Source of the DNA: Corbicula japonica
Taxonomy: Eukaryota > Mollusca > Bivalvia > Venerida > Cyrenidae
Direction: 5' to 3'
DNA: 64,000 nucleotides
NCBI GenBank assembly: GCA_038501625.1
Contig: JAZAYU010000182.1
Coordinates: forward strand, 992,001-1,056,000
The position numbers and the translations under genes are program-made. This document shows, in pieces, positions 1,766 through 48,300 of the stretch (position 1 is the first letter of the stretch; the number at the start of each line of letters is the position of its first letter). The notes below the pieces were generated by a model that was given only the letters and a program-made list of their open reading frames with translations, was not told the DNA's origin and searched no databases.

Positions 1766-4700
1766 CTGTAACGACCAATATATATGCATTACCAAGGTGA
1801 AAATACTGGGTAACTACAATGTTTAAAACAGTTCACTCTGTGAGTAAACTGTAGCAGGAGTAAGCATTTTTTCCATACACTATTTCAAAATTTTTCCAAA
1901 GCTGAACTGCTATAAACAATTTATCACTTATCCTCACCGAATTAACATTTCTCGCTCATCTGGTCTATCCCTTTCCTCCATATATACTCCTTTATGGCAT
2001 TGGTGAACAGTGTATATCCAGATCTGCACTGTTGCTTTATTAATTACAATTTATTAGGTTTTTTTCTGACTAAGTAGGGAACAGTGAAGATCCTGATCAG
2101 ACAGCATGGATGTGCCACTGATCTGGATCTACACTGTGTGCACATGTGATAAAAGGCTTATATATATGGAGTAAAGGGCAATTACTCTTGATAATAACAA
2201 AACTGAAAACGGTAATTTTAATGGAAATTTACCCAAGTCCTGGCACTATTTCAATTACCATTTTGTCTTTGTCATACAAGTGTAAGAAATACAGTTATTA
2301 AAGTGAGACGATAAAGTTACTTAGATAATACGAACCTTTCTCCTCAACTTCTCAAATCTTCTCCTGACCAGAAATCCGCGGGCATATTTCTGTATACACA
2401 CTGATGCCTTATGCATATCTCGTTTAGAAGGCCCAGTTTTGTTGGGGTGGTATATACTGAAACATTAACATCATGTGTCAACCATTTTTAAGAATGTCAT
2501 ACACTTAAGGATTGAATCAATATTTGATGGTTATAATTCGAGTATGTAAAAACAGTTGGGTTGTTTAAGTTGTGTGAGCATGCATACTTTAAACAATCCA
2601 ACTGTTTTCTTACCCAAATCAAAACAATTAAATATTGATTTTATTGTTTTATTTACAAAAATAAATACAGAAATAATGGGAAGAATTTGTGAGATTATGG
2701 CCTTTTTGAATGACTTGCAACAGCTATGTTGACAAAGTGAATGATAGCAAATCCCTTACATTGTAACAAACAATTCAATTTTAAGCCCAAAAATACAAAG
2801 GCATTAGCTCTTTTTGGTTCATTAGGTTATTTCTGACCAAAATGTGACCAGTGCAGATCCTGATCAGACAGCACGGATGTGCCAGCTGATCTAGATCTAC
2901 ACTGGTCGCACATCCGTAAAAATGCGTATATATGGAGGAAAGGGTTAACAATAATCTGAAAGTAACATTGTGTAGATACTTACTCGTAGATTTCTACATG
3001 TGGACCGATTGTTTCTATCTTTGACTTCGCTTTCTGTTGATTGGCCAGCATTCTTCCAGAGAAACATTAATTAGAATTAGATATAAGGGAGTACATAAAA
3101 TATAAACAAAATAAACTGGAGGGAATATTTGATCTTGTTATATTAAGTTAAATTTGTTAAAATAAGGTAGATTACATAGCTGCTGTCACCTGATTATTTT
3201 ATTAAATATGTTTATTACATGATTATGGGTTGGTATGTCTAAATATAATTTGAACCTAAACAAAATTCTTATTAAAATAATTTTCAGCCACGTTATACTG
3301 CCAGAATTCTTTGTAGTGTGTTAACAAATACAGAACTTAAGAAAAAAAAATCTTCAAATCAAGCAAAGCAAGCAGACACATAAGTTAGAGTTTATGATAT
3401 TCAAACAAAAAACCCTTGACCACTTGTTTAGAAAACAATAGTTGTTATTCTAATTGTAATAAGCTGTAAATAAATGATTAATATTGCAATTTATAACCCA
3501 ACACTGCATGGTAAACTATGCTCAATTAAAATGTTGTTAGTCAATATAACTGGTAAAGGTTGTTATATTTTTATGTTACTGTAGTAGTATTATATGTTAA
3601 ATTTCCTTTCTATCTCCCAAACTCATGGTCTGTAAATAAAACAACATATTGATGAAAATTATATGTAAATAGCTGCATCTATTATGCTGGAAATATTTCA
3701 TATTTTTGCATTTCAGTTATTTTACCTAAAGTTTGATAGAAAATTTCCAACTTGACATTTAATTTACAGTGTGGATATTGCCAACTGACATTATTAATTA
3801 TCTTATCAAATTTGGAACTACCAAACTATTGTATAAGATCTGTTAAACTTTAATCACTTGGACTTCCAGTGTATTTGACTTACATGTGTTATGTGTATGA
3901 AATTCATATACAAATAAAACTGTGGAACTTTTACAGAACATCTTCTTGAGGTAATTCCCCAACATTTAAGGAGTGTAAATTCCGCTTCTTAATACATCTA
4001 TAATTATAAACCAGTCTTTATTTAACTCCTTACATGATGCTTTATTGTGGTTTGGTAACTATTTATTAGACTTTGGGTGTCTCAACGAACACTGTTGGTA
4101 GCATGCAGGGTGGCCACCCTAAAAGGATGTCAGCGATGTCACCCATATAATTTACTAGTGTCTTATAAGGATGATAAATAATGTTTATCAGCTACATGCA
4201 TCCAAGCTTTTCTGGGTTTGTTCCGGGTACACAGTTGATTGCAGCTCAGAGTTAAGAGAATGGGTGCTGCTGCTGCAGGGGTTCAATTACCAGTCAAATC
4301 ATATATATACTATTCATAATGTATTGCACAGCCTTTTAAACCATCTTCCTATTATTTTAGTTACAATGACTATGATTCAATTTATTACAAGCTTACCCTA
4401 TTCACACTTATTTCTTGCAGCACAATTTACTGAAATAATACTAACTCTTTACAAATTTAGGACTGGGAATCCATTTGTCTATTTATGGTTACTGACATGA
4501 GTAACCAATAAATAATCAATACCAGATAGAACAGTATATTTACTTGTTAACCCTTTTCTGTATAGATACACCTTTATTGCTAGGGCGAACAGTTTAGATC
4601 CAGATCAGCCGGCACATCCGTGCTGTCTGATAAGGATCTAAACTGTTCGCTTTTTGATTCATTAGGTTATTTCTGACCTAAATGCAACCAGTGCAGATCC

Positions 4701-7700: not shown

Positions 7701-10700
7701 ACATATGTTCTGACCAAGTTTCTTTACAATCTGATAATCAGAGTAAAAATGTGACCACTAATAGTGTAAACAAGAAAATTCTATTTTTAGTAACAGTGAC
7801 CTAGTTTTTGGACCCAGATGACCTGTATTCGAACTTGTCTGAGAAATCATTGGGACAAACATCCTGACCAAGTTTCATGACAATCAGAGCAGAAATGTGA
7901 CCTCTAGAGTGTTAACAAGAAAATTGTATTTTTAGTAACAGTGACCTAGTTTTTGGACCCAGATGACCCATATTCAAACTCGTCCAAGAAATCATCGGGA
8001 CAAACATGCTGACCAAGTGTCATGACAATCAGAACAAAAATGTGACCGCTAGAGTGTTAACAAGAAAATTCTATTTTTAGTTACAGTGACCTAGTTTTTG
8101 GACCCAGATGATTCTTTTTCAAACTCACCCTAGAAATCATTGGGACAAATATCCTGACCAAGTTTCATGATAATTGGAGTAAAAATGTGACTGCTAGAGT
8201 GTTAACAAGAAAATTCTATTTATAGTAACAGTGACCTAGTTTTTGGACCCAGATGACCCATATTCAAACTCGGCCTAGATATAATTGGGACAAACATCCT
8301 GACCAAGTTTAATGACAATGGGAACAAAAATGTGACCGCTAGAGTGTTAACAAGAAAATTCTATTTTTAGTAACAGTGACCTAGTTTTTGGACCCAGATG
8401 ACCCATATTGGAACTCGTCCGAGAAATCATTGGGACAAACATCCTGACCAAATTTCATGACAATCAGACAAAAAATGTAACCTCTATTGCGTTGACAAAA
8501 TTTACCTTAGGGTTAGGGGTTTAGGGTTAGGGTTAGGTAAAAAGGCCCATAACTCAGCCAAAAATAATCCGATCAGAAATTCCTTTGGATATACACAACA
8601 AGTCTTGGTGACAAACACTCCTGTGAAGTTTCAATGAAATCCCTCAAGCAGTTTCAGTTTACGTTAGGGTTAGGGTTAGGGTTTAGGGTTAGGAATTCAG
8701 AATGATGCCATTTGGGCTCATTAATGTACCTTTATAGTTTCAAAATGACTAAGGGCTCATAACTCGGCCAAAAATAATCTGAGCGGAAACTCCTGATGAT
8801 ATGCACAACTAGGCATGGTGACAAACACTCCTGTGAAGTTTTAATGAAATCCCTCAAGCTGTTTTGGGGAAGAAGGGAGGACAAGAATTAGGGTTAGGGT
8901 TAAGGTTAGGGTTAGCAAAAAATGACAAAGTGCTCATAACTCAGCAAAAAATAATCCAATCGGAAATTCCTGACGATATGCACAACTAGGCTTGGTGACA
9001 AACACTCCTGTGAAGTTTCAATGAAATCCCTCAAGCTGTTTTGGAGAAGAAGCGAGGACAACATTTTGCCGGACTGACGGACGGACGGACAGACGGTGCG
9101 ATTACTATATGCCTCCCTTCGGGGGCATAAAAAAACAACTGCACAAGAGAATGTTTTCTTAACTTCTGATTTCAGTTTCATGTATGTTTGGTTAAAAGTT
9201 TTAAAAGAAATTCTAAGGGAAGTACCTAAGGTTTTACTGTGAACTTGATTGCTGAAATTTTAGAAAATTCAATATAACAGTATTTTTTTTTTCTGTAGAT
9301 CATTTGTGGGTATATTGTGTGACTGCTTTATAACGGAACAAATCACGTTTTTGTAAGTCTGCAGCGTACCCAGCAAACGTATTCCAGTACGTAAAACTGT
9401 ATGTTTTATGTATGTCACATTATGTACAAAATATGTATAATTAGTGCCATGGACGTTAAATTTATAGTTGGAACACGTCACATGTACTGGGCTATTTTTG
9501 CTGTGTATAGGTTAAAATACAGTTTACACTGATGGCACACCATATGAAGTTGACACACAAACATACCGGATCAGGTACATGAGACACTTGTGGTATTGGT
9601 CTTCCGATGTTAGCCAGGGATTGTGCCTGCGATGTTGGACGTTGTTTTGTCTGTACCGTGACAACTGGGGGTCTTGCGTATATGACCTCGGGGGTCCCTG
9701 TGTCTGTACTACCATCTTCCTCTGGGTGCTCAGGGTGAGCTGGCAATGAACCCAGTGTATCTGAAATTTGAATAACAATACTGTACATCCAGTAATTTTC
9801 CTGGAGGCAGATTAATATACCAAATTAAAAAAAACACAAAATTATAATTATATATATCAGTAAACTAAAACATATGGAATGTAGGAGCTGTCTGTGCGCA
9901 AAATGATATACTAATTCTCTGCATATGGAATGTAGGAACAGTCAGCACACATGGCAATATACATAATTAGTTATACCTGAGGTTCTCTGCATATGGAATG
10001 TAGGAACAGTCAGCACACATGGCAATATACATGATTAGTTATACCTGAGGTTCTCTGCATAGTATGGAATGTAGGAACAGTCAGCACACATGGCAATATA
10101 CATGATTAGTTATACCTGAGGTTCTCTGCATAGTATGGAATGTAGGAACAGTCAGCACACATGGCAATATACATAATTAGATATACCTGAGGTTCTCTGC
10201 ATACGGAATGTAGGAACAGTCAGCACACATGGCAATATACATAATTAGTTATACCTGAGGTTCTCTGCATATGGAATGTAGGAACAGTCAGCACACATGG
10301 CAATATACATAATAAGTTATACCTGAGGTTCTCTGTGTATGGAATGTAGGAGCAGTCTGCGGATAGGACAATATATATAATTAGTTATACCTGAGGTTCT
10401 CTGTGTATGGAATGTAGGAGCGGTCTGCGGATAGGACAATATATATAATTAGTTATACCTGAGGTTCTCTGTGTATGGAATGTAGGAGCGGTCTGCGGAT
10501 AGGACAATATATATAATTAGTTATACCTGAGGTTCTCTGTGTATGGTATGTAGGAGCGGTCTGTGCACGGGACGATGTACGTAGACTGACAATGGAAAGG
10601 GAGTCCATAAAATCCTCTGTATCTTGTCGTGATCCTGGCGGAGCTGACTTGCAGGTTTCCTTCCTTAACTCTACAACTGTAATTACACAACCGTTTACTC

Positions 10701-33100: not shown

Positions 33101-36100
33101 CAAAGCAATATACCCCTGCTTCTTTACAGGGAGGCATAATAGTTTTTTTTATTATATACCCATAAATGATTTTAGCATAGTGCAGCGTTTTTTGATACAA
33201 CTTATCAGATTAGTAATTCCGTATTGGACAATGTCCGTTTTCCAATTTTGCAGCTTCCCGTGTTAAATTTGTTTTGAACAAGAAGGATATATAATAAAAG
33301 GAACATTATGACAGTATGCATTCTGTATGTTCCTATTATTTCTCGTTGCATATGTAAATCACATCACACTCAACCTTCAGTCTCGTGAGACTCTGTTTAC
33401 ATACACAACTCGAATAATACAAACCTACAGAATGCATACTGTTATAATATTCCATATTTATCTAACTGCAGATCTTGATCACACGTAGCAAATGTACTAA
33501 GTGATCTGGATCTACACTGTTCACCCATGAGATGTATAACCTTGTGATTCAAAGGTTAATATTATTATTAAAAACCGCAGGAAATAAAAAGGTTACATAG
33601 ATTAGCCAAGCTCACCTGCGGGGGTCTGCCGGGGTGTTTTAGGGGCCACAAAGCTAAGGTACTCCTTATTCTGCGAGCCGGATGTCAGGTGACTCATGGA
33701 GGAAGCAGTGGCATAGCGAGAGTTCATGGAACGCAGGAATTCTTCATCCAGGAACAATGAACCCATCGAGCCATATCTACCATAAACAAACAATAATCAA
33801 CATGATCATAGAGCGATATCTAAGAAAAAATTAATAAACATCTATAATAAACAAACAATAACTTTTCATAAAGATTATAGTCAGGGCCCAAGATCATAAA
33901 ACTAAAATAGAATACTTCTTGCAGATCTCAAGCATGGTTGAAATGGAGACTAGTCCTTATTTCTACTAATCAATTGCTTGAGATTTGAGACAGATCTCCA
34001 CTTTCAGTTTTCTGATCTTCGACACAGTTGTATGAGATTTCTATTATTTACAATAACCAGCCTCACAGCTGTATTACCCAGAATGAGAACCAGCCTTACA
34101 GCTGTATTACCTAGAATGAGAACCAGCCTCACAGCTGTATTACCCAAATGGGTACCAGCCTTACAGCTGTATTGCCCAGAATGAGAACCAGCCTCGCAGC
34201 TGTATTACCCAGAATGAGAACCAGCTGCACAGCTGTATTACCTAGCAGGAGAACCAGCGTCACAGCTGTAAATACCTAGAATGGGAACCAGCCTGACAGC
34301 TGTATTACCTAGAGTCACTGGTGATGAGAAGGTGCTGTATATACCTAGAATGATTACCAGCCTGACAGCTGTATTACCTAGAATCACTGGTGCCGAGAAG
34401 GTGCTGTATATTCATGATCCTGTCCATGTCCTGGTCATCTACCTGGGTCATGGTGTTACTGGCCGCCTGTGCCGACACGCGGGAATTCTTGTCACACTCC
34501 TACAAACAAATAGAGCAAATGTTAGAATAATCCATACTATTGAGTCATTTTTGTACGAGACTTATTTTATTTATTCCACAAACAATATTTTATTTAAAAC
34601 ATTTACCCCTTTCCTCCATATATATATGCCGTTTTGGTATGGGCAAAAAGTGTTGATCCAGATCAGCTGGCACATCATCTCATGCACTGTTTTCTTTTTT
34701 ATTTATTTGTTAGGTACGATCCTGATCAGATGGGCAAAGATGTGCTGGCTGATCTTGATCTACAATCGTTTCACATGTATTAAAACATGTATAGATAATC
34801 TAAGATAAAGTAAAGGGGTACAAAGCTTTTCGGACGAAGAAATGTTTCATCTTCAAGATAAACATGAAAACATGTAATTTCAAAATGGTGTGGCATATTT
34901 ATAATTGAGGGGGGGGGGACTCTTAAAGTAATGCGACAAATTTGAGAAAATAACATTACTTATTAATATGCATTTTGTTGTAAAAATAACATTGTATTAT
35001 GAAAATGTGTAACAAAACCTCCAATTATTTATGAGAAAATAATACATAATTTTAAGCCCTTTCATAATATATACTAATAACTATTAAAATGTCAACAAAT
35101 ATGATTGAAAACACATTTTCCTGTGGCGTGTTCCATTTCATATTATTGAGTACTTTTTTTAATTCGGACTCATACGATAATCAATCAACAATCAAGTGCA
35201 ATAACCAAATAATAACAGCAAAAGTAAACTCATAGTTTACAATTAAAACAAAACACTAACATTATATTTTTACTTTATGTTTTCTAGTGAATTGATGAGT
35301 TTTCATAGAGAAATAAAATTTGAATTTTATTGTTTTAAAACTGTTATGCCAAATTAATTTTTCAACTTATTATCTCGCAAATTTTTCAGATTTGTTTTAC
35401 AAGAAAACATAAAATAAAAATAAAATGTGTTTCTAGGAAATATCCATTTTTTTAAGAGTGAACACCAGGAAATGATATTTTCATGAGTGGCATACTGATA
35501 TTTTCATGAGTGAAAATATAATTTTCTGGAGATCACTCGTGAAATGAATTCAGTATTTTACTGAAACGAATAAATATTCTCTATGTTGCTCAAATAATCA
35601 AAAATAATTAAACAATATTAAAAATAAAACAATATTCAGTGATAAGGAACCTACTTTAATACAAGGGAGAACGCACCTGTCATCTTCAATTACCTAAAAA
35701 TAGTACCTTCAATGATTCAAATGTAAGAGTCTGCAATAATGTATTAGTGCAGTTCACACATTCTTTTCTTTTATCCATGTAGGGATAGTGAATAATATCC
35801 TCAGATCTACTTAAACTCTTTTATAAGCAAAATGTTTCAGCCAATGGCCTTCTTCAGTTGATATTGTCATAACAAGTCTACATTTTCTTTCATATACAGG
35901 AAGATCTAAGCAATGCTTGTATGATGTCATCGACGTCATCATTGACGTCTGACGTCGCGCTATTCCAACAAATGCTTTTTGGCGCCAAATTTCTGTTCAG
36001 TAATTTTCTAATCAACTGATGTTGTTTAAGTTATACGATATCAACAATCATGTTGTTGTTGGCAATTGATGAGTTGATGATGATGATAATGGAAGTTGGC

Positions 36101-36310: not shown

Positions 36311-39300
36311 CAAGATGATCAAGACAATGGAAGTGATGATGTTATATAATGATGGTCACATTATAATCTGTTATCGTTGTAAAGTTTTTGGTGTTTTCTG
36401 TATCTAAAGGCAACAATGTTTGTAGGCATTACATATTTCTGTCATATATATACGGTGGGAGTCAGCCATGTTTAAATGTTTGGTGAAATATATGTATGGT
36501 TAAAGAAGTTTTACATGTAGAATTATGGGTTTAACTAAACACTGCCAGTATGACATGTTACAAATTTAAGGTGCTATGGCTGTTGTCATTGATAAAAAAA
36601 AGAAAATTATCAAAGTCTTTCTAACAGCAAAGTTCAGTTCAATTAAAACTTTTCACAAATCAATGTTATTGTGTTTGATTGCAAATAGAAATTTAGGGAT
36701 TTTTTAGGTCTAACTATTTTTGTTACTGTTCTAACTTTTCTTAACATATGTAAAATAAACATAAGGCTTATAACATTGATTTGTACAAAGTTTGATGGAA
36801 CTGCATTTTGCTGTTTGAGAGATGTTGATATTTTTCTTTTTTTATCTGTGACATAGCAATGATGAAAGGAGCAACGCCTTAATCTTGTATAAGTATATTA
36901 ATGCCCATATAAGGTTTTTCCCATTAACCCTTTCCTCCATAGATACACCTTTATTGCATGGGCGAACAGTTTAGATCCAGATCAGCTGGCACATCCGTGC
37001 CATCTGATCAGGATCTAAACTGTTCGCTTTTTGATTCATTAGGTTATTTCTGAGAAAAATGTGACAAGTGCAGATCCTGATCAGATGGCATGGATGTGCC
37101 GGCTGATCTTGATCTACACTGGTCGCACATGCGTAAAAATGGTATATACGGAGGAAAGGGTTTTTAATTAATATCAAACCTATGCGAAAAATAAAAATGA
37201 AACAAATCGCAAACGTGTGTTGATATGGTCTCCAGTCAGATACTTCAGCAGTGCATCACAGCAACACAGACCCTACGCAATTCCACAGCACAGTGTGCAC
37301 TGGGGTTTGAACTTAAAAAGTGATTGCGCAAATTAAAGTTTAAAGTATAGTTCTAGCTTAAAATACAGGCCTGGTAAGAGCTTGATGATTACTGTTAACT
37401 ATATAATAATATTTTTGGGCAACAATTATTGTATATTTGTACAAGTTGACCATATCTTTCACTAGCAAAAGAAAAGGTTTTCTTGCATACCTGAAAATAT
37501 AGGAATAACCATGCCGTAATTTTGAAGTTTGCGACGGTATACACAGATTTTAATGGTTGCAAATATTTTTAACGGCCAAGGCGCAGCCTGAGCCGTTAAA
37601 ATGATTTAAGACCATTAAAATCTGTGTATACCGTCGCAAACTTCAAAATTACGGCATGGTTATTCCTATTCTAACGCTCTACCATACTACCCTCAATCGG
37701 GCCTCATTCCATACTTAAACGGGTACCATGTTCTATTTATCCGTATAGTAAACAATGGTACGGTATTACCCAAGGGAACCCGATTATCCATACGTCGGTG
37801 AGATTACCGACAGTAAACTAGTTAAATAAATCACAAATAGAGGTCAAAACTTCAACATTTTTTATTACATCGACGTTTCGGCCATAATGCCTTCTTCAGG
37901 ATTGTTTGTCATAACAGGAAATGACGTCAGCGTCAAACGACAGTAAACAAGGAATTTTACGGTCGCAAATTTTCGCCATCTGACCAATCAGATTGCTCGA
38001 AATTTATTTAGTGCGTTAGAATATGTTTTTAAGTGTTTTACCAGGGAATGATAATTATTATTAAAAAATACCATTCACAAGCTTAGATCTACTTTCTAAA
38101 TCATAATTTCGAATAATACTGAATTAATGTATGAGTACTTGAATCATAACATAACAGATACAGTTACATTTCATGCATATTACATGCATTAATCAGTTCA
38201 CTAACTTAAACAAAGAAAGAATAGGAGGGAGTTCAATCAACAAGTTTACAAACTCACGTCAAAGCTCAGACACTGAATAGGGATATGATAGTTTGGTTTT
38301 TCTTGTTCGCTCTTCACGAAGGAGGAGCGAAAACACTACAGAGGTTCTACAAATATCTACCATGTTCTGACCTCTTTTGGCATAGCTGAAGTATAGTCAG
38401 TATTCGAAATATAACTGTGGTGTTTGCAGCCTTCTTTCTGTGAAGGGCGAAAATGAGAAACTATACTATATTTTTATCCTTTCTTCTATATCCATGCCTC
38501 TATGGCATGGGTGAACAGTGTAGATCCAGATCAGCCAGCAAATCTGTGCCATGTTCTGCATAGTTTACTTACTTATTTGTTAGGTTATTTCAGACCAAAA
38601 CATAAACAGTGCAGATCCTGATCAGACAGCACAGATGTGCTGACAGATCTGAATATACATTCTTCGCCTTTGCCATAAAAGTAATATATATGAAGTAGAG
38701 GGTCAATTTTTTTGTGTTGGCACTTCTGCCATAGTTACTAAAGTTGTTGATTGAACTCGCTCTCAGACAGTTACACAAGCTGCGGTTTGCTCCATTACAA
38801 GTGCGGCTCTTACCGTAATTGTTATCAAAACCGGCATTTTTTCATCTCGGTGTTTCACCGGATAAAATGGATACTGAGGTACTATAGATGGGTAGTTCTT
38901 GAAACCAAAATAAAAGTCATATGAACAAGTGTCTTGAACTTCCTTTCCCAAAATTCAAAATTTTACGAAAATAAAAATCTATATACCTATGGTCAAAAAC
39001 TAATTCCACTTTAAATAATTTAAACAGTTTATTCCCGATATTATTCACATGAAAATTATGTTGGAAATGTATATAAACTCTAAAATGTAAATGATTAAAA
39101 ATTTATTGGACAAAGATTTTTTGATTTTTTAAAGGTTTAATTGATAAAAGTATCATACACAATAACAAATTTTTCTCCTATATAATTTATGAAAAGTTCA
39201 CTTTGGACAAGTGTGCTAGCAGAAATTACCAAGTTCTATTACCATAAACATGCATGCTGTGTGACTTACATACCTGTGTTTGAACGTCAGGCAGTTTTAT

Positions 39301-42300
39301 TGGTGCACTATTTGCTTTTTCCTCCTAATTAAGCAAGCATTGAAACAACAATGATCAAAATAATCTCTCAATCTTATAACATCAAAGTATTATTAAAGAA
39401 TGCTTTATTCTAATAGAAAATATAAATGATTCAGTAATGCAAGCTTACTGAAAACTATCCAATAATTGTCCGTCCGTTAGACACATACAGTAATCATCTA
39501 AAAACATTCGTAATTTTAACCCTTTACTTCATTGGCATGTGTGAGAAGTGTAGATCCAGATCAGATAGTATATCTGTGCCATCCAATCAGGAACCACCCT
39601 GTTCACCCTTATCCAATGGCATAAAGAGTTAAAAATAGTTGGGTTTGTTTTTTTATTTTAAACTTTTGCCAACTGGACATCAAACTTTTAGAAAGCACTC
39701 TGAAAGTTTGAATTTTCTTTTTACCCAAACTGTCACATATAATTTCCAGTATTTAAAGAAAAACATTTTGAAAAAGTTTGATGAAAGCACAGCAGGTACT
39801 GTTACATCAAATCTTTCTTTCATACAGAAACTATAAATGTATATCTAATCTTTCTTGTTGTGCAAGCCAACAATTTCAGAAAGCTTGCACTCCAGTGTAC
39901 AGTATTCTGAGTAAACTATTTAGTGAAAATCTATCAGCATTCTATAATTGTGAAATTCTAAATATAGCATTAAAGATAACAAGTTTAAGCCGTGCCTTTA
40001 ATTTGCTCTGAAAAATTGTATAAAAGCAAAATTCTGAATAAACACATTTCCCGAGATTTATTTTCTCCTGTACTTATCATTTTGTTGATTATGCTGATTT
40101 AACTCCCTTTTTCTGGAACATATTATACTTGGATTTTAACGTCCTTGGTGAGATATAACATAGTGACTCTTAGGTGAACTGTGTAAATTAAGATTAGGAT
40201 GGTACATTTGTGCTATCTGATCTGGATCTACACTGTCCACTTTGCATCTTGGTCGGAAATAATCTAGTGAATCTGAAGCAAACAGTGTAGATTCAGATTA
40301 GATGGCACACCTGTGCAGTCTGATCTGGATCTACACATTTTGTCCATGCAATGAATACAAAATCAATGGAATAAAAGGGTGAACACTTTGAATTGAAAGT
40401 GTCCAAAGTTAGAAAATAGCCCTTAGTGCGAATTTAGAAGGCAAAATTGAGGTCATTTTTTAATTAAAATGAAATTTATATCCAACTGTGCCAGAACCTA
40501 AAGCAACAAAAATGTTTTTATCTGGATATGTAAAATCTTTCACTCTTAACCCTTTCCTGTATAAATACACCTTTATTGCTAGGGCGAACAGTTTAGATCC
40601 ACATCAGCCGGCACATCTGTGCCGTCTGATCAGGATCTAAACTGTTTGCTTTTTGATTCATTAGGTTATTTCTGACCAAAATCCGACCAGTGCAGATCCT
40701 GATCAGACGGCACGGATGTGCCGGCTGATCTGGATCTACACTGGTCACACATGCGTAAAAATGCGTATATATCAAGGAAAGGGTTAAAAGATGTGTGTTC
40801 AACCTACACATTTCAACACATCAAACCAACAGCTCTCACAAACACAAGATACACTTAACCAATGTTCTTACTACACTGATCATATTTTTTAAATTTCTCA
40901 GCATGTATTCGGAATATACTCTTCAAACTTGAAATATAATTTGATACATCATTTTCACTTCTTTTTATGAAATAACCATAAAATTCCCAACATCCGTTTA
41001 GATACCACAAGCAATTAATAGAGGTAGGGGCAAAAACAAAAGTCACAAAATTTTCAGTAGCGGGTATAGTCTCTGTTAACGAAAATGCATGTTTCATTAT
41101 TTAAATATGGAATCTTATGGTTTGAACAAATCTATGCAATTCTGCAATAATACAACTGATTAGCTGTTACACAGAAGATGTTTCAGCAGTTTTAGTCGGT
41201 TTCAGTATATCCTCTTTACAAACGCTAAGGTCAATTTTGTGACTTTTGGTTTTAGACTCACCTCAATAAAATGTCCTAGGTTTTTTAATACATAGGGGGA
41301 TTTTAATGGCAATTTCATAAAAAAGATGTAAAAATGATGGTTCTTAATGTGTTTTAAATTTGTACTCCTATTCCATGCAAAGAAATTAAAATTTTATGAT
41401 CGGTGTAGTTAGAACATTGGTTAAGTGTAGTTTTATCATATATTATTAAAATTGCTCAAAAAAGCTTTTATTCAGCACCTATCGCTTGCATGATCTACAT
41501 GTTTTCAAACATGCATCTAAAGCTTTCATCTATAACTATAAAAAAAGAAAAACCAATAGATAAAACTCCATAGTTCACACAGGGGAGAAAATGTTCTTAG
41601 AGACCTATACTTAACCTTTTCCTGTATAGATACACCTTTATTGCTAGGGCGAACAGTTTAGATCCAGATCAGCCGGCACATCCGTGCCATCTGATCAGGA
41701 TCTAAACTGTTCGCTTTTTTATTCATTAGGTTATTTCTGACCAAAATGCGACCAGTGCAGATCCAGATCAAATGGCACGGATGTGCCGGCTGATCTGGAT
41801 CTAAACTGTTTGCCCTCGCAATAAAGATGTATCTATACAGAAAAGGGATAATTACCTTTTCTTTTGTGTGCCACCTCTCCTTCATTGATATCGGGGCAGT
41901 TTTAGGTCGTTTCCCGGCACTCACGGCTCCGGCAGTTCTGAGCGAAGGCTTCAATTTCTGGACATAACTGTGCCCACCAAATCTATTTTTTGACCTGAGA
42001 GAGTAGAAAACAAGCCATGATAAAGAGGATATTTGTTTTTACCAGTGTAAGATAGAAACATATTTCACCGAGTGAGCTCTGGAATTCATATTTTCACAAG
42101 TGGCGAAGTCACAAGTGAAAATACATAATTCCTGAGTTCACGAGTGAAATATATTTCTATCTTTCACTAGAAAAACACATTTTCTTTTTATTTTATGCTT
42201 TTAGTTCACAATTTACGTGAATTCAACACTAAAATTGCATGAAATGGCACCAGAAACGTTTGTTTATGATGTGACGTCATGACGTCACATACCTATTTGA

Positions 42301-45300
42301 GCCCATTTTCTTAACGTTCTCATTTGGAATGTTCTGTACGATTGGGTACCAACGTGAAAAAAACAGTGAAAATAAAAATGATAAATTCTATAATTCACTG
42401 GAAAACTTAAAATAAAATGTCTTCATACAAGCTTTATTTCATACTTCACACTTTACCTGCTAAGCTTGTGTAATGGACTGTTTTGACAGTTGTTTTGTAA
42501 ATGCCATTTCGATTCATTAAAATAAGAGTTAGGGTTCTTCTGCATTGCACATCCTCCCGTTGCCCTTTATCAATATTCCAAGAATTATCTAGTTCCTTTT
42601 TTACAGCTGTAGAGATAAACTCTGGACAAGCTTTATAAAGAAAATGTCAAAGGGATATAATTCTTAGATAACTGAGGAAGAGTTATGGTTCCTGTGCACT
42701 GCACGTCTTCTCAATGCCTTTATCGGATATTTGTTTCAAATTTAAAATAAAATTAACAGTGAACAGACTGTTGGCTGTGCAGGCTAATTTGGGTCTACAC
42801 TGGTCACAAATGTGATACAAGGTTCCTTATGATTAGAACTCAAAGTTCCCATTTCATCTATATTTATAATAAATCCTCTAAAACACTTGACATTAGAACA
42901 TTTATGGAAGTATTAGGCTCTCCAGGAGGTGTTTAAAAGTATAAATATGTTATGGCCTCTTTGCGTTTATTTTCAGAACAATCCAACAGCCACACGTTTT
43001 ATTTACAATCACCATTTAAGTCAAATAATGGTCTACCATGTTTTAATTAAATCTGATAATGAAAAAATTGCAGATGTACTTGATCTTTGCTTGCTCTGGT
43101 GTGACTTTGCCTCTCCAGTCAACGGCTTTGCTGACAGTGGCGGAGTGGGGTCTGTTGGGTATGGTAGATTTGAAGGTGTCTGTCGGAACTTCTGGTTCAC
43201 CCATCAGTATCTCATCTTCTTCCCTACAGTAAGCAACTCCAGATTTATTATATGTATAAAATCATAATTAATTAATTATTCATACAATAAACAAATGATT
43301 AGGCAACATTTTGTCAGGTAAGTGAAACAACGTCAAGTAAGTTGAAACAATGTAAGGTAAGTGGAACAATATCAGGTCAGTGAACAATGTCAGGTAAGTT
43401 GAATATTGTCAGGTAAGTGAAAAAAATCCTCGGTAAGTGAAACAATGTCAGGTAAGTTAAATGTTGTCATGTCAGGTAAATAGACCAATGTCAGGTTAGT
43501 TGAATATTGACAGGTAAGTAAAAAAATTTCAGGTAAGTAAAACAATATCAGGTAAGGAGAACAATGTCTGGTAAGTGAAACAAAGTCAGGTAAGTGGAAC
43601 AATGTCAGGTAAGTGGAACAATGTCAGATAAGTGGAACAAAGTCAGGTAAGTAGAACAATGTCAGATAAGTGGAACAATATCAGGTAAGTGGAACAATGT
43701 CAGATAAGTGGAACAATGTCTGATAAGTGGAACAAAGTCAGGTAAGTGGAACAATGTCAGATAAGTGGAACAATATCAGGTAAGTGGAACAATATCAGGT
43801 AAGTGGAACAAAGTCAGGTAAGTGGAACAATGTCAGATAAGTGGGACAATGTCAGATAAGTGGAACAATATCAGGTAAGTGGAACAATGTCAGATAAGTG
43901 GAACAATGTCAGTAAAGTAAAACAATGTCAGGAAAATAAACAATGATAGGTAAGTGGAACAATGTCAGGTAAGTGAAACAATGTCAGGTAAGTAAAACAA
44001 TGTCAGGTAAGTGGAACAATGTCAGGTAAGTGAAACAATGTCAGGTAAGTAAAACAATGTTAGGTAAGTGGAACAATGTCAGGTAAGAGGAATAATGTCA
44101 GGTATTTGAAACATTGTTAGCCAAGTGGAACATTGTCAAGTAAGTGGAATAATGTCAGGTAAGTAAACAATGTCAGGTAAGTGAAACAATGTCTGGTTAG
44201 TGAAACGGAACCAATGTGAGTAGGATAAAACAATCTCTGGTAAGTAAACAATTGTAGGTAAGTGGAACAATGTCAGGTAAGTGGAAAGTGGCCAATATCA
44301 GATAAGTGAAATTGTCAGGTATGTGGAATGTCAAAAAATTTCTAGTGTCTGACTTGCGAGAGAAGTTTGGCTATTACTTTTCATTCTAACATATACAATT
44401 TACCATTTGGAATTAAAAAAACAAAAAAATCAGAATTATAAATATGCTAACCGTAACAATGTAAGTAAAAAACTTAACATGAAAAAAATTAAATGAAACT
44501 GGTAACTCCCTAAATGTAACTAGTTGCTTGATGTTAAACAACAACATATAACACACAATTACCATGCATCAAGCTTTTTCTTTTCCCTAAAATGCAAGTT
44601 ATCATTGTGTTGTTACTTTTTTGAATAAAATACCAATAACATTTGAATGGAAATACATGTCAAATAAGTAAACTAATACATAATAAAGGAAGAGCTACTA
44701 CCAGCACTCATTTCGTCTGAACACCAGGATACAATGTGGGTAGGGTAGACACTGTCTAATACTGGCCTAATTCTCTGGGGATGGAACTGATAAATAATTA
44801 CCATCTTGGCCAATGATTTGCTGTCACTTTAAACTGGATAAAATTAATGCAATGTTGTTTGCCTACTTTGTTTGTTTTCAAAGCTACATGGCATATATTT
44901 AAACTGTTATAACTTCCTGAAACATGCAGTGGAAGTAGGTGCCAGTTACTTACTGTGATGTGCCAGGTCTGCCCTGTTGACTGGGTGACCTTGGTCTGAA
45001 CTGTGATGAATTTGGCCTACTTCTGTGACATGTAGTGGATGTAGGTCCAAGTTACTTACTGCGGTGTGCCAGGTCTGCCCTGTGGACTGGGTGACCTTGG
45101 TCTGAACTGAGATGACTTTGGCCTACTTCTGTGACTTGGAGTGGATGTAAGTCAGTTACTTACTGTGGTGTGCCACGTCTGCCCTGAGGACTGGGTGACC
45201 TTGGTCTGAACTGTGATGACTTCTGTGACTTGCAGTGGATGTAGGTCCAAGTTACTTACAGTGGTGTGCCAGGTCTGCCCTGTGGACTGGGTGACCTTGG

Positions 45301-48300
45301 TCTGAAATGAAATAACTTTGGCCTACTTCTGTGACTTGCAGTGGAAGTTTGTCCAAGTTACTTACTGTGGTGTGCCAGGTCTGCCCTGTGGACTGGGTGA
45401 CCTTGGTCTGAAATGAAATAAAAGTGGCCTACTTCTGTGACTTGCAGTGGTTGTAGGTCCAAGTTACTTACTGTGGTGTGCCAGGTCTGCCCTGCGGACT
45501 GGGTGACCTTGGTCTGAAATGAAATAACTTTGGCCTACTTCTGTGACTTGCAGTGGATGTAGGTCCAAGTTACTTACTGTGGTGTGCCAGGTCTGCCCTG
45601 TGGACTGGGTGACCTTTGTCTGAACTGTGATGAATTTGGCCTACTTCTGTGACTTGTAGTGGATGTAGGTCCAAGTTACTTACAGTGGTGTGCCAGGTCT
45701 GCCCTGTGGACTGGGTGACCTTGGTCTGAACTGTGATGACTTTGGCCTACTTCGGTGACTTGCAGTGGATGTAGGTCCAAGTTACTTACAGTGGTGTGCC
45801 AGGTCTCCCCTGTGGACTGGGTGACCTTGGTCTGAACTGTGATGACTTTGGCCTACTTCTGTGACTTTCAGTGGATGTAGGTCCAAGTTACTTACTGTGG
45901 TGTGCCAGGTCTCCCCTGTGGACTGGGTGACCTTGGTCTGAAATGAAATAACTTTGGCCTACTTCTGTGACTTGCAGTGGAAGTATGTCCAAGTTACTTA
46001 CTGTGGTGTGCCAGGTCTGCCCTGTGGACTGGGTGACCTTGGTCTGAAATGAAATAACTTTGGCCTATTTCTGTGACTTGCAGTGGAAGTAGGTCCAAGT
46101 TACTTACTGTGGTGTGCCAGGTCTTCCCTGTGGACTGGGTGACCTTGGTCTGAACTGTGATGACTTTGGCCTACTTCTGTGACTTGCAGTGGATGTAGGT
46201 CCAAGTTACTTACTGTGGTGTGCCAGGTCTTCCCTGTGGACTGGGTGACCTTGGTCTGAACTGTGATGACTTTGGCCTACTTCTGTGACTTGTAGTGGAT
46301 GTAGGTCGAGACAACGGCTTGCTGGACACAGTGGTACTGGCAGGCTGCCGGAATCCTGGCATAGGAGTAGGGGCAAGCTGCAATCACAAACCAAATCTGT
46401 ATTTACATGTTATATAAAGTTCAGGTCCTTCTTTTAAAATAAGCAAAATGGCATTTGGCAATGTGTAATTCTGAAGTTTCATTTAATGCCAAGAAATAAA
46501 GAAACCTTGTGAATAGCTCAATTCATAGTTTGAAAATAAACATACAGAAAAAATGAGACTGTATCCACGGAACGCTGATGCTCCAACACCCATCCCCGCC
46601 CAACTTCTGCATATTTGTCGCAAAAATTTTGAAAAAATATATTACAATCTAATTACTCAATTAGAAGTTTGACCAATATGGTTTAGCCCTTTCCTCCATA
46701 GATCCACCTTTATTGTGTGGGTGAACAGTTTAGATCCAGATCAGCTGGCACATCCGTGCCATTTGATCAGGATCACTTTTTGATTCGTTAGGTTATTTCT
46801 GACCTAAATGCGACCAGTGCAGATCCTGATCAGATGGCACGTAAAAATGTGTATTTCTGGAGGAAATGGTTGATTTTACAGAAACTACTGAGTGAATGAG
46901 GTGAAGGATTGCTTCACAAAACTTTGGTTTACTGAAAATAACAACCAGACATTACTCTTTTCACAATTATCTTGGATAAAATTCCCGTCTTTCTGATCCT
47001 GCCTGATCATCTGTCCAGGTTTGAAAGAAATCAAATGTCAATTATGAGTTTAGATAAATGAGTTTAGATAGCATCATCCATACAGTCCGATCTAGATCGG
47101 CACTGTTCATTTCCGGATTAAAGAGATTATTTTTAACAAGAAGTCAATTAAAAGTATCATGCATGAGTGTGAGGTGAAGATGGAAAAATCTGTCACCGAG
47201 GGTTAACTGTTTTGCAGGAATGAGGCTCTGCCGCGCCAAAACAGTTCACCCGAGGTGATAGATTTTTCTATCTGTACTGAATGTCTCATGCATGATACTT
47301 TTTCTTGCATAACTTTTATTATTCATAACATTTGTATTTATGAATTATTGATATTAATGCAAACCTTATTTTAAAAATGACGACACTAACTTGAATATAT
47401 TATGTCAGATACTTCTAGATGTGACGTCACTCATGACTCATTCTACATGGAGGTGTAGGATCTGAATTTCCTACAAGGGTGAAAACACCGGATGACCTAA
47501 TCTGGTATGCAAGAAAATGTAAATCCTGATCAGATGGTATAGTTGTGCTGGCTGATCTGGATCTACACTTGTTAATCATGGGCTAAACAGCCATATCCTT
47601 GGAGTAAGAGATTAACTACCGTCATTGTTTGAATATAAGCCGCACTCATGCATAAGCCGCACCCCCCATAAACCTGATGGAACAGATGAAAATAGCTTAA
47701 TGCCATATATAAGCAGCCAAACCTGTGTATTAGCCGCACACCCAACTTTTTACAACCAAATTCTGAAAAAAAGTGTGGCTTATATTCAGATAATGACGGT
47801 AGTTGTGATCATGTAGCTGGTATAAAACCCACCTTCTCTCTGAAGTAGTTCATCTCATCCTTGACCTGGTCGATCATGGTAACCACAGTCTCTAGCCTCA
47901 CCTCGGTAGCTGGCTTATCATCGGAATATAAAACCTCGTCCTCCTCTGTATCGTGCTTCTCTGGTCTGAAGAGTAAAAATCATATCATTTCAAACTGTTC
48001 AGTATAGACACTTTTTGGCCAGTGTGTTAGTTTGACATTGTAATTGCCTTGTAAAACAATTGGATCTGCAAAGATACCGCATAGGGTCTTCTTTTTCATG
48101 AAAATGACTCCCCTTTAGAACTTGTTTCTTCTTTATCATTTTAATGCATTTTATTGTCAGAAAATACCGTCATCATCTAAATATAAGCCGCACTGATATA
48201 TAAGCCGCACCCCCCAAAACCCCAATGGAAATGGGTGAAAAAAGCCTAACTCTATCTATAAGCCGCGGTCTCTTTTTCAGACTGGTCGCCATTTTGAATC

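Follow-up and report, generated by a model that had tools for sequence, protein, structure and literature searches.

Candidate in-frame cassette exons in a minisatellite that crosses a 5' splice site of an IQ-motif gene in the clam Corbicula japonica

The window analyzed here is a stretch of 64,000 nucleotides (nt) from Corbicula japonica (contig JAZAYU010000182.1, positions 992,001 to 1,056,000). Its G+C content is 35%, and tandem arrays are abundant (39 rows reported by Tandem Repeats Finder (TRF)). A single gene with IQ motifs is encoded on the minus strand. Within the window, 21 of its exons are visible, as assigned by tblastn with clam orthologs and by splice-site reading. One exon is followed by a tandem array, and five copies in this array contain a 42-nt segment that looks like a cassette exon. 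The initial annotation numbered this parent exon as exon 8; by homology, it is the seventh of the 21 in view. The gene and the features around the array are as follows (bp, base pairs; acceptor scores are given for a vertebrate-like and an own matrix, described below).

1620-62594, minus strand: IQ-motif gene of an uncharacterized family (tblastn and splice sites)
47833..47965, minus strand: preceding constitutive exon (splice sites and tblastn with orthologs)
46214..46377, minus strand: parent exon, seventh of 21 in view, entered in phase 0 and left in phase 2; the first copy of the unit's exon part is formed by its final 93 bp (splice sites; tblastn with the Mercenaria and Mactra orthologs, 86% identity)
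44925..46307, minus strand: tandem array with a period of 106 bp, the unit being 93 bp of exon tail and 13 bp of intron start, GTAAGTAACTTGG (TRF and aligned copies)
46002..46043, minus strand: candidate cassette exon A, 42 nt, in unit 3 (acceptor 3.8 vertebrate-like, 4.8 own matrix; GTAAGT donor)
45896..45937, minus strand: candidate cassette exon B, 42 nt, in unit 4 (acceptor 3.8 and 4.8; GTAAGT donor)
45472..45513, minus strand: candidate cassette exon C, 42 nt, in unit 8 (acceptor 3.8 and 4.8; GTAAGT donor)
45366..45407, minus strand: candidate cassette exon D, 42 nt, in unit 9, with the strongest acceptor (8.8 and 7.4; alignment)
45260..45301, minus strand: candidate cassette exon E, 42 nt, in unit 10 (acceptor 3.8 and 4.8; GTAAGT donor)
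43080..43223, minus strand: next constitutive exon (EEDEILMG...), with a weak acceptor and a weak GTACAT donor (tblastn with orthologs and splice sites)
41856..41994, minus strand: second exon downstream of the parent exon (splice sites and tblastn with orthologs)

TRF reports 13.2 copies with 92% matches. In-register alignment gives 13 copies, one being the parent exon's own and 12 being extra, and the donor GTAAGTAACT is present in all 13. Each unit consists of an exon tail and an intron start, and the duplication therefore crossed the 5' splice site. The array is certainly not attributable to chance, and its origin, a tandem duplication that ran across one exon's 5' splice site, is near certain. 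The initial annotation had overlooked that the complete repeat unit consists of the 3' end of the exon itself and the donor there. Translation through the first donor adds GTPQ and then hits a stop at once, so that the copies are either intron or separately spliced. Individual copies differ in ways not shared by the others, and two of them have deletions of their own (10 nt in unit 11, 2 nt in unit 12), which were excluded from all tallies of changes.

Orthologs were compared at the protein level, each protein representing a 90% cluster that may hide isoforms. In the proteins from Mercenaria, Ruditapes, Mactra, Mya and Dreissena, the exon tail is single-copy and runs straight into the next exon, which starts with EPDDILMG, EVDEILMG, DADDIMMG, ESEEILMG and ETDEILMG, respectively. 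The motif P[RK]SP[SN]P occurs in four of 35 related proteins, once in each and twice in none. As five clam orthologs have one copy that is joined directly, exclusion of additional modules is, judged from these proteins, the ancestral default. Three scallop proteins (P0016, P0017 and P0019) have three RSxSP motifs at the equivalent place, so that the number of modules can change there. The unit structure and the single-copy orthologs point to a young, lineage-specific minisatellite in an uncharacterized bivalve gene with IQ motifs. The exon's own donor precedes the copies; splicing at this donor would keep the protein unchanged, and the copies would have become intron. A neutral origin suffices for the array, since the whole unit is the exon's 3' end plus donor, but accounts less well for the acceptor form described next.

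There are two kinds of copy. Seven of the 12 extra copies still have the form that resembles coding sequence (TCATCACAGTTCAG or one base away from it), while five (units 3, 4, 8, 9 and 10) have the form TTATTTCATTTCAG. The latter has five exact matches in the whole window, all of them directly before the five 42-nt segments. Four linked differences (C>T, C>T, A>T and G>T) create a pyrimidine tract in the acceptor copies. They also abolish a competing AG, which, as read from the sequence, would give an out-of-frame segment of 47 nt. Unit 9 has three additional changes (AAG to CTT), all to pyrimidine. Unit 12 has just one of the four (A>T at -9), which may be a parallel change or an intermediate. 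When all base choices at the four changed sites are scored with the gene's own matrix, TTTT ranks top among the 81. Changes within the tract are to pyrimidine in seven of seven cases, compared to five of ten elsewhere in the exon-derived spacer (Fisher 0.04); this count omits a G/A difference at -38, the direction of which is unclear, and takes a change that is shared or recurs as one. A templated origin of TTATTTCATTTCAG was considered and rejected: the window has no further exact copy, and the two other matches have two mismatches each, which makes seven similar sites in all compared to 2.6 expected by chance. A cluster of changes in one copy would have created a good 3' splice site where there had been coding sequence, and turnover of the array would then have spread this form to five of the 12 extra copies; both states are seen in the array, while their order is our proposal.

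Acceptor strength was evaluated with two matrices, one being vertebrate-like (matrix 1), the other being built from 19 acceptors of this gene, which are few sites (matrix 2). Matrix 2 and the ranks leave out exon 10 (near 38903) and exon 19 (near 3051), the acceptors of which were not placed exactly. With matrix 1, four candidates score 3.8 and unit 9 scores 8.8, while the other copies, including the exon's own, range from -1.8 to 0.5; 13 of the 19 constitutive acceptors are at or below 3.8. With matrix 2, the values are 4.8 and 7.4, with -1.6 to 0.7 for the other copies. The leave-one-out median of the constitutive acceptors is 2.1, three of 19 reaching 4.8 and none reaching 7.4. Of the strand's other AGs (3413), 0.53% score at least 4.8 and 0.09% at least 7.4. 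The candidate acceptors thus match or exceed most real acceptors of the gene in strength. When four random changes were introduced within 8 nt, the observed strength was attained in 1.5% of 200,000 trials with matrix 1 and in 0.009% of 100,000 trials with matrix 2; these null tests were chosen post hoc, after inspection of the data.

Each of the five segments has an acceptor, a donor and a frame-preserving length, as is characteristic of tandem cassette exons. Much of the anatomy that the initial annotation had proposed is borne out. The five 42-nt segments with phase 2 at both ends and a GTAAGT donor are exact in five of five cases, and the proposed gain of a good acceptor in these units agrees with the matrix 2 scores given above (4.8 and 7.4, compared to the constitutive median of 2.1). 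Neighbors had been said to be about 64 or more bases apart; with all five used, the predicted introns are 170, 64, 382, 64 and 64 nt, followed by 2036 nt to the next exon. Any number of segments had been claimed to be insertable without frameshift, and all 32 inclusion patterns are indeed open across the four exons between 47965 and 41856, predicting 10 distinct proteins of 193 to 263 residues. The module had been described as 14 residues long, which is correct, even though the string that was given held only 13; its sequence is QPRSPSPQGRPGTP, identical in all five candidates. The codon that is split at the phase-2 end of the parent exon is completed by one base from exon 43223-43080. In candidate E, the final base T would turn the following Gln into a Leu.

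Coding constraint on the 42-nt core is weak by the counts available, which show no clear excess of conservation over the spacer. Differences between copies had been thought to fall mostly on third codon positions, which applies to the acceptor units (two of three distinct changes) but not to all array copies (five of ten). In the count of synonymous and replacement differences, which the initial annotation had suggested, random core changes are silent in 34 of 120 cases (28%), while the internal changes observed, few as they are, are silent in five of nine cases for all copies and in two of two for the acceptor units. All four internal replacements are in copies without acceptor, leaving none in the acceptor units (chance about 0.12, given that five of the 12 copies have an acceptor). 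The density of changes in core and spacer is similar, so that the even substitution pattern which the initial annotation had named as speaking against its idea may apply.

Three more exons have arrays made of their own tail and donor. At 1-1656, a 57-bp array of about 29 copies repeats the tail (DMHEYMDLRRR) of an exon with its end near 1621, together with the donor there; the 29 donors listed have all kept GTAAGTC. An in-frame stop, relative to the exon, occurs in 13 of 28 copies of that array, compared to none of the 12 copy cores downstream of the parent exon. At 9915-10555, the exon that ends near 10527 has given rise, with its tail and donor, to a 68-bp array. Its later copies have linked changes that give CTGAC and a pyrimidine-rich stretch before GCAG, which resembles a 3' splice site, with only 10 nt to the next GT. 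At 34055-34411, a diverged 33-bp array comes from the tail and donor of exon 34499-34378; one further copy is within the limit of five mismatches, the remaining ones being more diverged. Its units, TTCTCATTCTAG/GTAATAC, resemble recursive or dual splice sites of the AG/GT type. No acceptor (0 of 21) is inside an exon-end array. That arrays favor 5' splice sites was considered and rejected: four of 21 donors are in local repeats, as are 19% of 2368 intronic positions (P(>=4) 0.59). The comparison of donors (four of 21) with acceptors (none of 21) has too few cases to decide. Arrays at donors fit tolerance, copies past the first donor being spliced away. An array of another kind is found at 43312-44286. 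It has about 50 copies of 19 bp, and 89 nt separate its end from the weak acceptor downstream, that of exon 43223-43080. CTGAC words, which resemble branch points, occur 31 times on its sense strand, and 27 copies of AGGTAAGT are on the other strand.

The tblastn matches used for exon mapping are those of the Mercenaria and Mactra ortholog queries; exon 13 (23421-23331) is based on splice-site reading alone. The nearest relatives by identity are from Mercenaria and Ruditapes (60% over about 750 residues), and Mactra has 51% over 1046; these matches make a heterodont bivalve the most probable source. The family is also found in other molluscs, in the brachiopod Lingula, in annelids and in a nemertean. 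Database records of the relatives are mostly labeled uncharacterized or hypothetical; one Biomphalaria record is labeled slx4. IQ is the sole Pfam family over its cut-off in two scanned relatives, and it is likewise found in two exons here. No solved structure is related to the Mercenaria ortholog up to an E-value of 0.1, and none matches exon 5318-5142; the IQ exon gave two weak matches to solved structures.

The reading that we prefer is that the array arose by duplication across the donor, that at least one candidate is spliced into some transcripts, adding QPRSPSPQGRPGTP in frame, and that direct joining of the two constitutive exons would stay the main form. We see equal chances for this reading to be right or wrong, and optional inclusion of at least one 42-nt segment is, as a prediction from the splice sites, about even. 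Several observations weigh against inclusion. With matrix 1, 3.5% of 3068 intronic AGs reach 3.8; strong AGs occur at about 1.9 per kilobase, so that pseudoexons by chance should be common. When linked blocks are counted as single events, the pyrimidine bias drops to four of four compared to five of ten and is not significant (P 0.13). The null trials differ widely between the matrices (1.5% and 0.009%), and the gene's own matrix has 19 sites only. Distinct changes number 10 in 42 core columns and 10-11 in 33 spacer columns outside of the tract. A yTnAy branch-point motif at -45 to -18 is found in none of the five candidates, which is not decisive, since 14 of the gene's 21 exons have one (counted with approximate ends for exons 10 and 19). 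Three of the predicted introns are 64 nt long, compared to a minimum of 399 nt among the gene's 20 introns (a count that includes these same two exons with their approximate ends). Inclusion of a single module, however, needs no such mini-introns, the first intron then being 170 nt or more. Protein searches found neither a transcript product of this species nor an isoform with added modules, the matches being representatives of 90% clusters, which can hide isoforms. A query with five modules added matched no protein at an E-value of 0.001 or below among 7992 candidates scored. The module region is low in complexity, and this result says little because Ser/Pro words are common.

The array may instead be an inert intronic minisatellite, the T-rich form being one multi-base mutation spread by turnover and the segments being pseudoexons that are practically never included. 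We take this to be a serious possibility, if somewhat short of probable. Arrays of tail and donor at three other exons of the gene, one of them with the many stops mentioned above, fit well, and with about 19% of intronic positions in local repeats such arrays are ordinary here. The weak branch points, the 64-nt introns, the lack of clear core conservation and the orthologs that skip the array point the same way. What such an inert array would leave unaccounted for is the direction and strength of the acceptor changes, which affected the same tract twice (in units 3, 4, 8, 9 and 10, and again in unit 9). At the other extreme, the array would be a regulated and selected set of microexons, with tissue or stage setting the number of modules and with the usefulness of the acceptor as the cause of its spread. 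The exact frame, the identical modules and the strong acceptors would suit this, as would the three RSxSP motifs of the scallop proteins at that place; with coding constraint apparently no greater than in the remaining array, however, we consider it rather unlikely. The repeated donors might themselves act, either as decoy 5' splice sites or by binding U1, and so tune the splicing of the intron or its premature polyadenylation. Although none of about 28 distinct changes affects GTAAGTAACT, which 13 of 13 copies share, ten of 106 columns stay free of change with a chance of about 0.06, which youth alone may explain; donor conservation was therefore dismissed as a weak sign of selection. A role of the donors also leaves the acceptor changes unexplained and seems very improbable. 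The same low probability is attributed to an assembly artefact in copy number or order. Tandem arrays are prone to misassembly, but private differences and two private deletions do not look like simple repetition of one read, and the two kinds of copy persist regardless.

Comparable systems are known. In human polyubiquitin UBC, a tandem array of dual-specific splice sites allows splicing to vary the number of modules (PMC10809524). The likeness is that tandem repeats supply the splice sites and that the module number can change without frameshift, which is a prediction for the clam. In UBC, one AGGT acts both as donor and as acceptor, each module is a whole ubiquitin, and intron lengths are multiples of the unit (PMC10809524). 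The clam array lies within an intron and has separate sites 42 nt apart (acceptor TTTCAG/A, donor CA/GTAAGT) in a 106-bp unit; no dual AGGT site is found, and the predicted introns (170 to 2036 nt, listed above) stand against this unit of 106. Tandem duplications that cross an exon-intron border and turn former exon sequence into intron have been described for potato (PMC4974935) and fission yeast (PMC3629103). In each 64-nt spacer of the clam array, 51 nt can be aligned with exon 46377-46214. In the potato case, the acceptor side of the parent was duplicated and a cryptic donor came into use, whereas in the clam the donor was carried along, the acceptor is new and there are many copies. The intronic ABCA7 repeat (a variable number tandem repeat) is adjacent to an exon and has a unit that starts with a splice donor; it affects splicing, including retention of one unit (PMC5954066). 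Its unit is 25 bp long and out of frame, and the array has no cassette exons inside. The oyster alternative oxidase gene is reported to have a tandem duplicated exon and to give two mRNAs (PMC5589949), being another mollusc gene with alternative use of duplicated exon sequence; the clam copies comprise no more than an exon tail, their five modules do not differ, and modules that are included would add up. Neither this array nor an acceptor gained inside an exon-tail minisatellite is named in a title or abstract opening among the matches listed. The clam array differs in its separate donor and acceptor, in the acceptor being born inside former coding sequence, and in the coexistence of both states in one array.

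It is tempting to speculate that a length-variable domain is spliced from this minisatellite, turnover having spread the new acceptor, so that individuals would differ in the modules available and tissues in the modules used; we regard this as doubtful on present evidence. The seven copies without and the five with an acceptor would, if this were true, represent exon birth caught midway, which is an equally tentative idea. If the segments are not spliced in, the locus is a warning that perfect-looking in-frame microexons can arise where an array spans a donor. If they are spliced in, the locus would show directly how tandem repeats can make intron, and later optional exons, out of coding sequence, the ancestral and the derived copies lying side by side, and repeat turnover could yield identical in-frame modules, the number of which is chosen at the RNA level.

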